Shown: positions 2,305 to 26,483 of the stretch, piece by piece
How positions within the stretch are numbered: position 1 is the stretch's first letter
How the letters are laid out: each line of letters opens with the position of its first letter
NCBI GenBank assembly: GCA_017640685.1
Contig: JAEPQF010000012.1
Span: 1-37,717 of the forward strand
Direction: 5' to 3'
Length of the DNA stretch: 37,717 bases
Origin: Hyphomicrobiales bacterium
GTDB taxonomy: Bacteria > Pseudomonadota > Alphaproteobacteria > Rhizobiales > HXMU1428-3
Notes under the pieces: generated by a model
Told to the model about the DNA's origin: nothing
Database searches by the model: none
What the model saw: the letters and a program-made list of their open reading frames with translations, nothing else
Made by a program: the position numbers and the translations under genes

Positions 2305-2337
2305 AAAAAACCAGCCTCTTTAGTAAAAAGAGGCTGG
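2305..2337 (-). terminator. Rho-independent terminator after the first PepSY-like gene
   Basis: An 11-bp perfect stem CCAGCCTCTTT/AAAGAGGCTGG (2311-2321 and 2327-2337) has a 5-nt loop. On the minus strand it is followed by TTTTTT (2310-2305). It also closes the space before the hydrolase gene. Confidence 0.85.
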
Positions 2338-2438
2338 TCTCTTTATCTTTCAGCCAGAGTTTGGGATATGGGGGGCTGTAGTGACTGACCAAAAGATATT
2401 CTTAAAAGCTGTATTGATTTGTCTGTTTCATCTTTAAT

Positions 2439-2924
2439 TTAATTCCAACTCCAATATTTTCTCATTGGCATGCGGCGGATAATTTCACCTGTGCAGGCGT
2501 TTAGAACTAATTTGAAACGTCTGCCATTATAATTGGTTGCTAGTAGCTTTATCCGTCTTGGCCGTTCTTTTAAGATATGAAAATCATGCCATCCACGTTT
2601 GATTAAAGAACGTCTGATTTTTCTCTTTGGAAGACAATCTCTTCTCCAATCTCTGTACCCATATTTGTAATGATCTTGAGGGACATGTTTATAGTCAAAA
2701 CGTTCTTTATGTGATTTGTAACTTTTGCTTTCATACTCACCTTTGTAGTCATCTTCAAAGCGTGGTTTTTGGCCTGTTCTTCTCTCAAAATCGTCTAATG
2801 TCTTGTCAATATATGATCTGTCTCTGGTTTCATAATAGTCAAGGTCAGCAGCCTTTGCGATGGTAGCTCCTAGTAGCGCACATATGAGAGTGGTCGCTGA
2901 GATAATTTTAAATTTGTTCATCAT
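2439..2924 (-). CDS. Secreted basic PepSY-like protein, paralogue 1
   Basis: 161-aa exported protein of unknown function. A signal peptide (residues 1-25, cleavage after AKA) leads into a charged, Tyr-rich middle. The C-terminal domain of about 50 residues starts at Cys97 (CLPKRKIRR) and ends after a second Cys144 (NACTGEIIRR). This layout, a short helix then a beta hairpin with a GRRFKLVL strand, resembles PepSY-type domains of small rhizobial secreted proteins. The same domain with the same 47-residue Cys spacing occurs in the gene at 3115, and a more distant form at 4615. Two ATGs stand in tandem; AGGAG is 4 nt from the first and 7 nt from the second. It has its own upstream element and terminator, so it is monocistronic. 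The two Cys could form a disulfide in the periplasm (inference). Confidence 0.7.
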   Translation of the reverse strand: MMNKFKIISATTLICALLGATIAKAADLDYYETRDRSYIDKTLDDFERRTGQKPRFEDDYKGEYESKSYKSHKERFDYKHVPQDHYKYGYRDWRRDCLPKRKIRRSLIKRGWHDFHILKERPRRIKLLATNYNGRRFKLVLNACTGEIIRRMPMRKYWSWN

Positions 2925-3032: not shown

Positions 3033-3049
3033 ACACTTATTTGGGAATT

Positions 3050-3090
3050 AAAAAGCCTCTTTTACTGAGGGGGAAAGAAAGAGGCTTTTT
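3050..3090 (-). terminator. Rho-independent terminator after PepSY-like gene 2
   Basis: A 13-bp perfect stem AAAAAGCCTCTTT/AAAGAGGCTTTTT (3050-3062 and 3078-3090) has a 15-nt loop. Flanking A and T runs make it usable in both directions. It lies 25 nt past the stop of the gene at 3115. Confidence 0.85.
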
Positions 3091-3114
3091 AACATTTGTA
3101 GTTACTTGTCCGTC

Positions 3115-3744
3115 TTAGTAGTCCAGTGGGATTCTCTTGATTAAATGACCTGAACATTTATGAACAACCAGTTTGTATCGATCACCATAATGGTTTGAAG
3201 CGAACAATCTTGCGCGGTTTGGTCCTTGGTTGATAAGGCGAATTCGTCTCCAACCATTATTCTTCAAACGACGGAAGACCTTGTGCTTTGGGACACAATT
3301 ATGAGCGTGATTTCTATGGCGATATGGTCTGTCATTATGGCCATAATAATTTCTAGCGTGTCTTCTTGGCCCTCTGTAGTGGTTTTGACTATATGCTTCT
3401 TCAGCCAAGAATTTTAAAGTCTTCTTGAAGATCTTTTTAATTTTAGCGTGCTTCTTTTTCTTCTTTCTATGGTGAACATGCGGGGCTGGCGCATGATGTT
3501 TGTTATGGGCATTTTGCCGTTGTTTATTTGCCCTTTTCGGCTTGTTTTTCTTCGCTACTGCCTTATTGCCATTTTTCTTTTTGCCAGCTTTATTTTTCTT
3601 ATTTTTGCGATTTTTCTTTTTCTCTGCTTTTTCAATCGCATTTTTGGGTTTGTAACTGCCATCATTGTGTTTTTTTGCATAAGCATTTGCTGGCAAGATA
3701 AATGTACCAACAAGCATAACTGTCATTAGAAAATGTCTATTCAT
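3115..3744 (-). CDS. Secreted Lys/His-rich PepSY-like protein, paralogue 2
   Basis: 209-aa exported protein. The signal peptide (about residues 1-23, ANAYA) is followed by a very cationic segment, roughly residues 24-110, dominated by Lys with Asn, Ala and His and runs such as KKKKK. A His/Arg/Tyr-rich stretch comes next. The C-terminal domain starts at Cys150 (CVPKHKVFRRL) and contains Cys197 (HKCSGHLIKRIPL). It aligns almost residue for residue with the C-terminal domain of the gene at 2439, including the 47-residue Cys spacing and the GDRYKLVV strand. Function is unknown. The polycationic region suggests binding to an anionic envelope polymer such as LPS, teichoic-like glycan or nucleic acid (inference). 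It has its own promoter region and terminator, and is divergent from hsp20. Confidence 0.7.
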   Translation of the reverse strand: MNRHFLMTVMLVGTFILPANAYAKKHNDGSYKPKNAIEKAEKKKNRKNKKNKAGKKKNGNKAVAKKNKPKRANKQRQNAHNKHHAPAPHVHHRKKKKKHAKIKKIFKKTLKFLAEEAYSQNHYRGPRRHARNYYGHNDRPYRHRNHAHNCVPKHKVFRRLKNNGWRRIRLINQGPNRARLFASNHYGDRYKLVVHKCSGHLIKRIPLDY

Positions 3745-4520: not shown

Positions 4521-4550
4521 ATTATTTGACTTAAACTAAGCTCAAAAAAG

Positions 4551-4585
4551 AAAAGCCCCTCTTGAAAGTTTCAAGAGAGGCTTTT
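4551..4585. terminator. Bidirectional terminator between hsp20 and PepSY-like gene 3
   Basis: The stem AAAAGCC-C-CTCTTGAAA / TTTCAAGAG-A-GGCTTTT has one C/A mismatch, with A and T runs on either side. It lies 30 nt past the stops of both convergent genes. It contains the same GCCTCTT/AAGAGGC-type core as the other two PepSY-like gene terminators. Confidence 0.85.
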
Positions 4586-4614
4586 TAATTATAAAGATAT
4601 TAATTCTTTAAAAA

Positions 4615-4965
4615 TTACCATTTTGAGTGGTGGCGGTGATAGTGACCATAGCCATAACCACACCAACCGATACGTTTGCGAGCCATTACTTCACCCCAGC
4701 GATTAATGCGTAGTTTAAAGCGTTTGCCGCGTTTACATACTTTGGCTTTATAAACAGGCAAGTAACGGTCTACAAAGCGAATTTTATAAAAGCCACGATG
4801 GCGAAGTTTCTTGCGAATAACATGCAATGGAATGCCTTTATTCCAGCCATATGCAGGACCGTGATAATGTTTTTTATAGCCATTTTGATGGGCTGAAGCG
4901 CCAGAAACGCTGGCGAAAAGGGCAACACCAACTAATGTGGCGATAGCGAAGATTTTTTTGAACAT
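4615..4965 (-). CDS. Secreted basic PepSY-like protein, paralogue 3
   Basis: 116-aa exported protein. The start at 4965 gives a clean signal peptide (MFKKIFAIATLVGVALF... cleavage after ASA) and has AGGAG 8 nt upstream. The frame is open 12 codons further, but without a ribosome site. The mature protein is basic and rich in Tyr, His and Gly. The core (IPLHVIRKKLRHRGFYKIRF, then KRFKLRINRWGEV) matches the helix-then-hairpin pattern of the paralogues at 2439 and 3115. The two Cys fall at other positions (KVCK and GWCGY). The tail is a Gly/Tyr/His stretch. Function is unknown. The upstream region keeps TTCAG-N11-TATAGT but only part of the longer element shared by the other two genes. Confidence 0.7.
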   Translation of the reverse strand: MFKKIFAIATLVGVALFASVSGASAHQNGYKKHYHGPAYGWNKGIPLHVIRKKLRHRGFYKIRFVDRYLPVYKAKVCKRGKRFKLRINRWGEVMARKRIGWCGYGYGHYHRHHSKW

Positions 4966-5047
4966 TCGAAGTCTCCTAAGTTCTAATAAAGAGATTTTCA
5001 TCTCATTGAAAAATTAAATTGTCGTCATTTATCTCATTGTTGATTTG

Positions 5048-23831: not shown

Positions 23832-24202
23832 ATCTCTCACGGCTATTCCTCGCTACGCTCGGGCCTCCGAGGGGCGGCGCAAAGCGCCGGGCTACGCTGG
23901 CGCTTCGCCATGTCCCTCAGCCCGAAGTGGGCTGAGCTCCTACTTCGTATAGTTTGACTTCACTTTCTCTCACGGCTATTCGCAGCTGAAGCTGCAGGCC
24001 TCCGAGGGGCGGCGGTTTTTCTACGTTCAGCTTTTCCGTACTCGCTCCTCTCTGTTCGGGCTGATCTTGCGCGCCGGACTGTGTTTTCCATTTGCGCTTT
24101 AGGTTGCTCTTTTTTGTGCTCCTTCAGGTTGCCCACTAGCAACCGTCGCGGCAACCGCGATTCTTTAGTTGCGCTTTAGGTTGCCCACAAGCAACCGCGC
24201 TG
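23832..24202. repeat. Modular GC-rich intergenic repeat, copy A
   Basis: About 370 nt, clearly more GC-rich than its neighbours, with no believable gene. Modules: CTCTCAC-GGCTATTC (23834-23848, again 23967-23981), each followed after a short variable palindrome by GGCCTCCGAGGGGCGGCG; GCTTCGCCATGTCCC (23902-23916); a perfect hairpin CTCAGCCC/GGGCTGAG (23916-23936); CTTCGTA; CAGCTTTTCCGTACTCGC with GTTCGGGCTGATCTT (24028-24068); and hairpins GGTTGC-6-GCAACC (24127-24144, 24179-24196). Most modules recur in copy B at 26167 in a circularly shifted order. It fills the space between kdsD and motA. Confidence 0.8.
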
Positions 24203-24335
24203 TATCATTTTGAAGCATAATTTTCAGTCATATTAACCAACTTGCTTTAGCCTTAATTCATAACAAGTCTGTATTGTTAACCCTAATTGGTACATGCGAA
24301 GCGTTATTTCGCAGATTTGGTTGGGGTTTAGTATT

Positions 24336-25109
24336 ATGGATTTAGCGACAATCATAGGTTTAATCGGCGGTATAGGCATTGTTGTTTATGCTATTTTGTC
24401 TGGTGGTACACTTGATACGTTTGTAAACGTTCCTTCTCTTCTCATTGTGTTTGGTGGCGGTTTTGCAGCCACGATTATGCGCTTTCCTCTAGCAAATACT
24501 ATGACCTCCTTTGTTCTTGGTGCGAAAGCTTGTTTCACACATAAAGCACAAAGCCCGGTTGAAATGACCGACGAGATTTGTAACCTGGCTGAAATTATCC
24601 GCAAAGAAGGCCCTCTTGGACTTGAAGGCGTTGATATTACCGATGAGTTTTTGAGCAAAGGCACGCAATATGTGGCTGATGGTTATGATGCCGACTTTAT
24701 GCGTGAGACAATGGAAAAAGAGCGTGACCTTTATCTCGAGCGCTTAGATGAAGCCCAGCGCTTTTACAAGATGCTCGGTGATGCAGGCCCCGCATTTGGT
24801 ATGATTGGTACTATCGTTGGTCTGGTGCAGATGCTTTCAGCGATGGATGACCCAGCTGCGATTGGTCCTGCTATGGCGGTTGCGCTTTTGACCACTCTTT
24901 ATGGTGCAATGATGGCTAACCTTATTTGTCTTCCAATGGCTGACAAACTTTCTAATAAAATTGCGATTGAAGAATTAAATCAATCTCTTGTGATTGATGG
25001 CGTTATGCAACTGCGTGAGAACAAAGCTCCGGCTCTAATTCGTGAAATGCTTGAAGCCTATATGTCTGCAAGCCAGAAATCGACAGCTGAAGCAGCCGCT
25101 GCTGCTTAA
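24336..25109 (+). CDS. motA: Flagellar-type stator subunit A (MotA/PomA family)
   Basis: Ion-channel stator protein with four membrane segments, 257 aa, the length of PomA-type (sodium or mixed) stators rather than the longer 280-290 aa rhizobial MotA. The first helix is LATIIGLIGGIGIVVYAI; the loop-to-TM3/TM4 block GMIGTIVGLVQMLSAM...PAMAVALLTTLYGAMMAN is the family core. I chose the ATG at 24336 because PomA proteins start MDLATxIG; the frame is open to 24294. The partner motB follows 49 nt later. No other flagellar gene is in the window, and both sides of the pair carry the same repeat family. Confidence 0.88.
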   Translation: MDLATIIGLIGGIGIVVYAILSGGTLDTFVNVPSLLIVFGGGFAATIMRFPLANTMTSFVLGAKACFTHKAQSPVEMTDEICNLAEIIRKEGPLGLEGVDITDEFLSKGTQYVADGYDADFMRETMEKERDLYLERLDEAQRFYKMLGDAGPAFGMIGTIVGLVQMLSAMDDPAAIGPAMAVALLTTLYGAMMANLICLPMADKLSNKIAIEELNQSLVIDGVMQLRENKAPALIREMLEAYMSASQKSTAEAAAAA

Positions 25110-25158: not shown

Positions 25159-26031
25159 ATGGGTAAGAAAAACAAAGGTGGAGGCGGAGGTGTTCCCGAC
25201 TATATGGTCACATTTGCTGACCTTATGTCGATCCTTGTGTGCTTCTTCGTTCTCCTTATTTCTTTCTCTATTCAGGATAAGCAAAAACTTCAAGTTGTTG
25301 CTGGTTCCATGAAGGATGCGTTTGGTGTGCAGTTCGTCAACCGTAAAGCAGGTATGATTGAGCTAGAAGGCGCGCCTATTCGCCAATATGTGAAAAAAGT
25401 TGCCCCCGTTGCATCAGAAAATGACACGGAATATGCCGAAATTCGACATGATGAACGAACCAAGCAGGGGCCAGAAGCGAATACACATGATATTGAGAAA
25501 AATGAGATTGAACGCCCTCGGCAATTTGCTTTAGCGGCAGCATCTCTTCGCCAAGCGTGGCAAGAGATGCCGGAGATCACTCACCTTTCGAGCCACATTA
25601 TGGTGGAAGAATCTCCTGAAGGCTTGCACATTCAATTAATCGATCAGGAAGCTCGCTCGATGTTTCCTGCAAGTTCAAGCCGGCCATATGAACATACACG
25701 CAAGCTTTTGGCCGCAATGGCGCCGATTGTTAAACGCTTGCCAAACCGGATTAAATTAATGGGCCATACGGATGCGAACCGTTTGTATAAATCCCCTGGC
25801 TTTACCTTATGGGATTTATCTGCCGATAGAGCGCAAGCCGCCCGGACGGTTTTGGCGGAAAATGGTATTTCGCATGATCGCTTCTTTGAAGTTGGTGGCA
25901 AAGCGGATATTGAGCCTTTGTTTCCAGAGGACCCGTTTTTGGCAGCGAATAGACGAATTTCAATTTTGATTATGGCTGAGAACCCACCTTTACCAGTTGG
26001 GCATAATTTGAAAATAAAGGCTGAGAAATAG
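25159..26031 (+). CDS. motB: Flagellar-type stator subunit B (MotB/PomB family, OmpA domain)
   Basis: 290-aa inner-membrane protein that carries the channel aspartate and anchors the stator to peptidoglycan. The Gly-rich cytoplasmic start is followed by VPDYMVTFADLMSILVCFFV with the ion-carrying Asp21. A charged linker of about 130 residues follows. The C-terminal OmpA/MotB peptidoglycan-binding domain has KLMGHTDAN, LSADRAQAAR and AANRRISIL. GAGAG-type ribosome site lies upstream (AATGAGAGATTGAT). Transcribed with motA. A two-hairpin structure ending in a terminator begins 18 nt after the stop. Confidence 0.88.
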   Translation: MGKKNKGGGGGVPDYMVTFADLMSILVCFFVLLISFSIQDKQKLQVVAGSMKDAFGVQFVNRKAGMIELEGAPIRQYVKKVAPVASENDTEYAEIRHDERTKQGPEANTHDIEKNEIERPRQFALAAASLRQAWQEMPEITHLSSHIMVEESPEGLHIQLIDQEARSMFPASSSRPYEHTRKLLAAMAPIVKRLPNRIKLMGHTDANRLYKSPGFTLWDLSADRAQAARTVLAENGISHDRFFEVGGKADIEPLFPEDPFLAANRRISILIMAENPPLPVGHNLKIKAEK

Positions 26032-26048
26032 AATTCATAAGTTTTGGA

Positions 26049-26164
26049 GTTAATATGATCCCCATCCCCCATCCAAGTCATATTAACGCCAGATAGATAC
26101 AGCGGTGGGATCCGTTCATCCCCCCTGACCCCCAAAATGGGTCTCACTGCTGTATTTTGTTTTT
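26049..26164 (+). ncRNA. Two-hairpin RNA with C-rich loops after motB (candidate 3'-UTR sRNA)
   Basis: Hairpin 1 is a 10-bp perfect stem GTTAATATGA/TCATATTAAC (26049-26058, 26078-26087) whose 19-nt loop is TCCCCATCCCCCATCCAAG. Hairpin 2 is a 14-position stem (26097-26110 with 26142-26155, two G-T pairs) around a loop containing CATCCCCCCTGACCCCC. It ends in a T-rich tail, TTTTGTTTTTC. Two stem-loops exposing C-rich anti-Shine-Dalgarno sequence and a terminator is the general plan of rhizobial alpha-r14/CcsR-like RNAs. The exact CUUUCCUCCC loop motif is not present. It could also be just an elaborate motAB terminator. I found no convincing promoter of its own, so processing from the motAB mRNA is likelier. 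Confidence 0.45.
26097..26164 (+). terminator. Rho-independent terminator of motAB
   Basis: Stem ATACAGCGGTGGGA / TCTCACTGCTGTAT (26097-26110, 26142-26155) with two G-T wobbles and a 31-nt loop. It is followed by a T-rich run to 26164, directly where repeat copy B begins. Confidence 0.75.
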
Positions 26165-26166
26165 CT

Positions 26167-26483
26167 CTCTCACTGGCTATTCAGCCGCTGAAGCTGCTGG
26201 CCTACTTTTTTTCATGTGCTTCAGTTGCCTACCTGCAACCGCACTGTGCGGCAACTTTTTTGCGATCAGCTTTTCTGTACTCGCTGCGCTCCGTTCGGGC
26301 TGATCTTGTGCGCCGAGCTACTTTTTATTGACGCTTCAGGTTGCCCACTAGCAACCACGATTCTTTAGTTGCGCTTCAGGTTGCCCACTAGCAACCGCGC
26401 TGGTGCTTCACCATGTCCCCAGCCCTGACATGGTTGCAGGTAGACAACCTAAAGATCAAAAAAGGCGTCACTCCTTCTTCGTA
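26167..26483. repeat. Modular GC-rich intergenic repeat, copy B
   Basis: Shares modules with copy A at 23832: CTCTCAC-tGGCTATTC (26167-26182), CAGCTTTTCTGTACTCGC and GTTCGGGCTGATCTT (26267-26307), two GGTTGC-CCACTA-GCAACC hairpins 40 nt apart (26339-26356, 26379-26396), GCTTCACCATGTCCC (26405-26419) and CTCCTTCTTCGTA (26471-26483). In copy A the last two modules come first, so the copies are circular permutations of one unit, as expected if the element occurs in tandem or moved by recombination. No gene is supported within it. Confidence 0.8.

Follow-up and report, generated by a model that had tools for sequence, protein, structure and literature searches.

A conserved 3'-UTR RNA element with two C-rich-loop hairpins behind motB in a genus of Hyphomicrobiales, and similar elements behind other genes

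Directly behind the flagellar stator genes motA and motB, the stretch of DNA analysed here (the window: 37,717 nucleotides of contig JAEPQF010000012.1, assembly GCA_017640685.1, Hyphomicrobiales bacterium) carries a structured and conserved RNA element that consists of two hairpins with C-rich loops, the second of which is a terminator. It occupies the interval from the motB stop codon to the terminator, which is where a 3'-UTR-derived sRNA would lie. Most likely the element is an RNA of the 3' UTR that may be set free as an sRNA and would pair with G-rich RNA through its C-rich loops, in the manner of 6C/B11, sX13 or RepG. The features of the window are collected in Table 1.

Table 1. Features of the motAB region and of the second element of the window
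Feature	Coordinates	Strand	Basis
motA	24294..25109	+	PF01618
motB, with the element in its 3' UTR	25159..26031	+	PF13677, PF00691
Short AU-rich linker from motB stop to hairpin 1; proposed RNase E entry	26032..26042	+	sequence; cutting inferred
Hairpin 1, loop CCCCATCCCCCATCCAA	26043..26093	+	sequence, folding, covariation
Hairpin 2 (terminator stem), loop CATCCCCCCTGACCCCCAA	26095..26157	+	sequence, folding, covariation
T-tail	26158..26164	+	sequence
161-aa protein, signal-like N-terminus, upstream of second element	2439..2924	-	sequence; weak PepSY_2 match
C-rich-loop hairpin, loop TCACTACAGCCCCCCATATCCCAAACT	2344..2398	-	R2 match, folding; kept in G001, G004, G002
Terminator hairpin, loop not C-rich	2305..2343	-	folding

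The stem of hairpin 1 starts 11 nt after the motB stop. Its core is the perfect 10-bp stem already noticed in the sequence-only reading (26049-26058/26078-26087), to which are added the pair U26059-G26077 and, beyond a one-base mismatch, 26043-26047/26089-26093, giving a total of 16 pairs around a loop of 17 nt (26060-26076). Hairpin 2 was rightly credited with a C-rich loop (19 nt, 26117-26135) and a T-tail, but its stem (26095-26116/26136-26157) has 21-22 pairs rather than the 14 first proposed. GTTTTT follows directly 3' of this stem, and with a T-run in that place hairpin 2 has the form of an intrinsic terminator; our simple terminator scan lacks it because that scan permits loops of 3-8 only. 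The stretch 26040-26175 has a folding energy of -46.3 kcal/mol; its shuffles average -25.0 (z -7.1) and none of the 200 is as stable, which bears out the early reading of two C-rich-loop hairpins of which the second terminates; folded separately, hairpins 1 and 2 have z-values of -5.7 and -5.4. The plus strand is the better one, since G-U pairs (3-7 per sequence when the motB elements are read on this strand) outnumber A-C pairs (0-3) and since minus-strand folding is less distinct from shuffles (z -2.9 and -2.8). Under a strict filter (loops that are at least 50% C and contain a C5 run, and a stem score of at least 8) hairpins 1 and 2 are the only ones to pass on either strand of the window, and 30 Markov shuffles yield a mean of 0.13 per window and a maximum of 1. 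A looser filter adds the element at 2302-2406 on the minus strand and one hairpin without a T-run. A promoter hidden in the 3' end of motB was considered and rejected: synonymous identity in the last two intervals of the gene (0.47 and 0.42) is not raised over that of the others (0.38-0.62), and there is therefore no promoter sign there. The motAB genes are flanked by copies (24125-24196 and 26337-26396, plus strand) of an interspersed repeat, CAGGTTGCCCACTAGCAACC, present four times in the window (shuffle mean 0), and similar pieces occur in other intergenic stretches of these genomes.

Many of the genomes compared are MAGs. MotB is present in seven of the eight genomes of the genus (G003 has no match at E 1e-40), and the element follows motB in all six that have a readable stretch (G000, G001, G002, G004, G005 and G007); in G006 the contig stops 44 nt past the motB stop, and the remaining stub is the start of the element with a C8 run. 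A MotB that is 97% identical is found on contig L025, labelled Methyloligella sp. DHS20C07. When the six motB elements are aligned (alignment A2), 12 of 33 pairs have changed on both sides. These are the compensatory changes in relatives on which the sequence-only reading had staked its RNA, and on that half of its own test it therefore stands. Of all cells in the alignment, 92.9% are paired, against 36-51% when the partner is slid, and on four of five measures none of 500 shuffles reaches the observed value; on the fifth, the number of further pair types, 53 of 500 are as good. Helix 1 is the weaker one (84.6% of cells paired), and its stem is most divergent in G002. The loops of this set are 57-60% C and 3-5% G, the stems 21-22% C, while identity amounts to 0.48 in loop 1 and 0.66 in loop 2 versus 0.64 and 0.68 in the respective stems. 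What is kept behind motB is the composition of the loops rather than their sequence: stems vary, and loops stay C-rich and nearly G-free.

At motB the element looks lineage-specific. A covariance model made from the motB elements only (R1) was run against 397 genomes of the order (the GTDB order of the window, whose named members are labelled Hyphomicrobiales) and reached E <= 0.01 in six, every one from this genus, with an additional, different locus in G002. Five genus-level matches at E 0.13-9.9 (L118, L119, L121, L122 and L123) were dropped, as no pair of C-rich-loop hairpins could be read in them. The negatives of this search, and of the later one with model R2, are weak because few first-look candidates (8 or 9) are scored per genome, and the own-genome element at 2302-2406 was missed. 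Downstream of motB itself, 61 of 79 loci were scanned (L083 and L087-L103 being left out): the two-hairpin plan is seen at four, all of close relatives and including L027, where hairpin 2 alone passes the filter, and in truncated form at L028; at none of the remaining 56 do two hairpins occur whose C-rich loops contain C5 runs.

The search for further CATCCCCC-loop hairpins in the genome, which the sequence-only reading had recommended, did yield another one with a terminator. The pattern CCCCC-N(1-9)-CCCCC occurs at 13 distinct places in the own genome, and folding of these revealed C-rich-loop hairpins at two besides motB (L136 and L139); the genus-wide comparison of the pattern refers to the matches listed, with part of G005, as well as G006 and G007, lying outside them. 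The L136 element lies 3' of a BTLCP peptidase gene (PF06035), itself situated behind a gene for a PilZ-domain protein. This BTLCP gene is present in all eight genomes of the genus and is each time followed by a C-rich-loop hairpin and a strong terminator, whose loop has a C-run in seven (it is absent in G006). Double changes affect 6 of 21 pairs in the genus alignment; for four of five measures no shuffle out of 500 equals the real alignment, and for the fifth 38 do. The L139 type is found at L139 (1275-1545) and at L240, L241 and L242 of G001, which encode small peptides with a signal-like start and the repeats FGIQYP and LEFPNSFDLN, downstream of which lies a hairpin of about 25 pairs with the loop CCCCC(C)UCCCUCCCCC; there are three copies in G001, two of them near contig ends, with about 210 bp in common at 95-96%.

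From the eight BTLCP elements of the genus we built a second covariance model (R2), which reached E <= 0.01 in 46 of the 397 genomes, namely the 8 of the genus and 38 others. Among the non-genus matches, 33 of 40 were read, on 32 loci, and a BTLCP gene lies just upstream at 11 of these (in 11 genomes), which belong to seven further families (f12, f16, f26, f32, f36, f44 and f46). The predicted fold shows the C-rich hairpin and the terminator in 10 of the 11, at L302 in a shorter context only; at L315 the best fold pairs otherwise, though the C-rich stretch can be seen to be enclosed by a possible 7-bp stem. The other 21 loci are not counted as members because no BTLCP gene lies in the stretch examined, and they may be chance terminators. 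At L303 (G025), also with no BTLCP gene in the stretch examined, R2 matches close to the end of a contig, where there is a terminator with a C7 loop (CTCACCCCCCCTCGTGAG). In an alignment of 18 BTLCP rows (A7, used instead of A5 because 8 matches in the latter lay on the opposite strand from the element, and leaving out L249, which is on that strand), 19 of 21 pairs have double changes, a value that none of 500 shuffles reaches; 98.1% of cells are paired versus 31-50% when slid, in an alignment that is fitted to the model structure and leans towards it. The first loops of these rows are 40-68% C and 3-18% G and often have two C-runs flanking AU (CAUCCCCGACC and kin), and the terminator loops have CCC or longer in 15 of the 18.

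A third locus is in the window itself. R2 matches 2302-2406 on the minus strand (E 2e-11 over 64.5 kb), directly 3' of the gene of the 161-aa protein, which has a weak match to PepSY_2 (19.2 bits, under the Pfam cut-off of 24.3). G001, G004 and G002, the three other genomes in which the gene was found in the stretches examined, carry the element at the corresponding position. Over the four sequences, with that of the window included, the loop is nearly invariant (identity 0.83) and the stem reaches 0.73. R2 also scores the terminators (4545-4612 and 3046-3110, both on the minus strand; E 0.0002 and 0.09) of the next two small protein genes (4615-5001 and 3115-3744); no C-rich loop was seen at 4545-4612.

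On sequence grounds, the elements behind motB, BTLCP and the 161-aa protein gene look like one set, a "3'-UTR C-rich-loop hairpin plus terminator", similar by descent or by convergence, and this set looks like a kind of RNA element that has not been described before. R1 correctly locates BTLCP and third-locus elements, with hits in 13 of 15 sources at E <= 5 and a best value of 7e-5 when the window's own motB element is set aside (L302 and L332 have no hit, and in one case R1 hits the element's own reverse strand), and R2 matches the motB element at E 0.014; these sources were chosen as element-bearing, so that the matches speak of similarity and are not an unbiased search. A joint alignment of 14 motB and BTLCP rows (A4) was discarded because it set loop 1 of one family against the stems of the other. 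The class is sparse: hairpins with a two-C-run loop and a nearby T-run number 0 in a 163-kb sample of G000 and 1 in a 400-kb sample of G001, and in the window 3 with a C-rich loop and 1 with a G-rich loop, the last being hairpin 1 reversed. Single terminators with a shorter C-loop do exist (for example L264, C7). At L264 such a loop, ATCCCCCCCTC, is found on the minus strand near 554, between convergent genes that by eye resemble those of a TPR protein and a penicillin-binding protein. G002 (L221, C2:717350-717780) has a hairpin of 15 pairs whose loop is ATGTCCCCCATCCCCCTCAATCACCC and which is not followed by a T-run.

RNAs with C-rich loops have been described in Actinobacteria, Xanthomonas and Helicobacter, and Rhizobiales have the anti-Shine-Dalgarno cuckoo RNAs. 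The 6C RNA is an Rfam family, defined by two hairpins whose loops each contain about six C in a row. Our element comes close to this definition, but its first loop often has no run of six (the runs are C4+C5 and C6+C5 in the window and C3 to C10 in relatives), and the 6C covariance model has no match in 26.0-26.5 kb or in the six motB loci. Rfam 15 has no family that matches the element in the window, the motB loci, L120 or the BTLCP loci; hits to g2 (E 3.9 and 4) and, at three BTLCP loci, minus-strand hits to Scr3202 (E 0.09-0.45) fall below the gathering score and were taken as chance. In the portions of the papers available to us, several RNAs resemble the element in part. The actinobacterial 6C/B11 RNAs share with it two C-rich loops, and B11 represses an mRNA with a six-G tract in its 5' UTR (PMC10470900), whereas the motB element is alphaproteobacterial, has no Rfam match, forms part of a coding gene's 3' UTR and has longer loops with CAUCCCC-type repeats. 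The sX13 RNA of Xanthomonas likewise has C-rich apical loops, and its repressed mRNAs carry G-rich motifs near their translation starts (PMC3771888), but it has three hairpins, studied targets and a host from another bacterial class. In RepG of Helicobacter pylori it is the terminator loop itself that forms the C/U-rich pairing site for a G-repeat (PMC8295292), although RepG has that single loop and its own intergenic gene. Certain Rhizobiales 3'-UTRs related to SmelB053 also place a conserved-loop hairpin before the terminator of coding genes, but with the loop GGAUGUA and, in 29 of 33, a link to cold-shock genes (PMC3927594). The plan of the element is like that of 6C/B11, sX13 and RepG. Its origin would be like that of CcsR1-4, which are processed from the ccaF1 3' UTR with RNase E (PMC8625941, PMC10253847), and of further 3'-UTR sRNAs that RNase E cuts in Rhodobacter, an alphaproteobacterium in which such release is described (PMC8625941). 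Among the titles and abstract openings consulted, which mostly do not cover subscription papers, none concerns a C-rich-loop RNA behind motB or BTLCP.

We scanned the loops for pairing energies of -12 kcal/mol or lower against 405 predicted genes from the window and samples, with the C/G-swapped loop as control. Loop 1 of motB gave 49 hits in start, 30 in stop and 39 in coding regions (66 for the swapped control), loop 2 gave 60, 29 and 56 (103), and the BTLCP loop 98, 55 and 86 (186); a cuckoo-type anti-Shine-Dalgarno control loop gave 16, 6 and 2 (4 when swapped). Over these 405 genes the motB loops do not clearly favour start regions above coding sequence, so they are not general anti-Shine-Dalgarno tools and any pairing would concern a limited set. 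The general role was also rejected on the grounds that the swapped loop scores higher and that the anti-Shine-Dalgarno control loop does prefer starts. G-runs themselves are more frequent at starts: GGGGG occurs at -30..+12 in 8 of 408 genes versus 2 of 408 after the stop, and GGGG in 52 versus 21. One example, to be taken as a lead only, is TTGGGGGATAAAACCGAATG before the L255 gene, which has a signal-like start. Runs of five or more G are absent from the motAB part of the window; there is thus no obvious self-target, and pairing in cis was dropped. Allowing one mismatch, the loop-2 pattern matches itself alone on both strands of the genome, which leaves no long, near-perfect target, and neither pattern search nor energy scan found a specific target of the motB loops.

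The alpha-r14 RNAs are grouped with the cuckoo RNAs and CcsR1-4, and it was to these anti-Shine-Dalgarno RNAs that the sequence-only reading tentatively assigned the element, as a possible new member type. We now hold such membership to be very improbable. The repeated C-rich loops and a 3'-UTR position as in CcsR (PMC8625941) would suit it, as would the likeness to SmelA075/SmelA099, in which stems vary and loop motifs are kept (PMC3927594), but the cuckoo and CcsR RNAs have the loop motif CCUCCUCCC, three or four hairpins and an association with DUF1127 genes. The anti-Shine-Dalgarno motif CCUCCUCCC is absent from the loops of all six motB elements, and the host here is motAB; the single DUF1127 match of the own genome (PF06568) is on contig C147 and not beside motB. 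Rfam has nothing of the cuckoo kind that matches the window at the gathering score, the 26.0-26.5 kb stretch at E <= 5 or the six motB loci at E <= 10, and it is the control loop, not clearly the motB loops, that prefers start regions. The 3' region of the C147 gene has one TCCTCCC stretch and a terminator. Nearer to the cuckoo motif than the motB element is L120 (1501-1621, minus strand, in G002; R1 E 0.0016), where two hairpins with CCUCCC-type loops lie 3' of a small ORF; a piece of a chemotaxis-receptor-like gene, under the Pfam cut-off, is found further upstream.

Three other readings were weighed. C-rich, G-poor loops bear a likeness to Rho sites, and the loops could be bound by a single-strand C-binding protein (Rho, or a cold-shock or KH/S1 protein) that aids termination or protects or matures the mRNA 3' end, with no RNA target at all. 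The motB and BTLCP loops keep composition and not exact sequence, pairing is not enriched at starts over coding sequence, and the elements are placed at mRNA 3' ends, as a protein site would have it; we nevertheless judge it unlikely, since a plain Rho site needs no long covarying stems, an intrinsic terminator is already present, and the third locus keeps the letters of its loop better than those of its stem. It is improbable in our view that the element is an ordinary terminator with a 3'-end-stabilising hairpin and that the C-rich loops are a by-product. The location past the stop codon, the T-tail and the 3 of 18 BTLCP terminator loops that have no CCC agree with this, yet the first hairpin keeps its C-rich loop at three unrelated loci while the stem changes, and at BTLCP does so across eight families; moreover, two-C-run hairpins are so rare in the G000 and G001 samples that they are not the usual terminator of these genomes. 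The same loop type 3' of several unrelated genes is what one would expect of shared sites for one regulator, and the 3' UTR might then be a sponge that ties up one or more G-rich sRNAs, with motAB transcription relieving the targets of these; this, too, we consider rather improbable.

The reading we prefer, with about an even chance of being right, is that of a conserved 3' UTR of the motAB transcript that holds its C-rich loops single-stranded, with hairpin 2 as the intrinsic terminator, and that acts by pairing with G-rich RNA. The element would be co-transcribed with motAB until RNA polymerase stops at hairpin 2. RNase E would then cut the short AU-rich linker 3' of the stop codon and leave an RNA of about 115 nt, or the 3' UTR may act while still attached. 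Its C-runs would pair with GGGGGAU-type G-runs close to the ribosome-binding sites of a limited number of mRNAs and may so affect their expression. The broader reading, which we put forward tentatively and at less than an even chance, is that of a new 3'-UTR RNA class in the order, in which G-poor loops with double C-runs (CCCC..AUCCCC) and a terminator stand behind genes of motility, surface and envelope (motAB, PilZ-BTLCP and the PepSY-like gene), and in which a common G-rich RNA or protein partner would tie these outputs together.

What stands out here is the combination of a C-rich-loop hairpin and a terminator in the 3' UTRs of coding genes, at several genes of a single genome and, for BTLCP, in eight families. 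The covariance models R1 and R2 make the class searchable. If the loops have one common partner, transcribing the flagellar stator operon would have a direct influence on how other genes are controlled at the RNA level.
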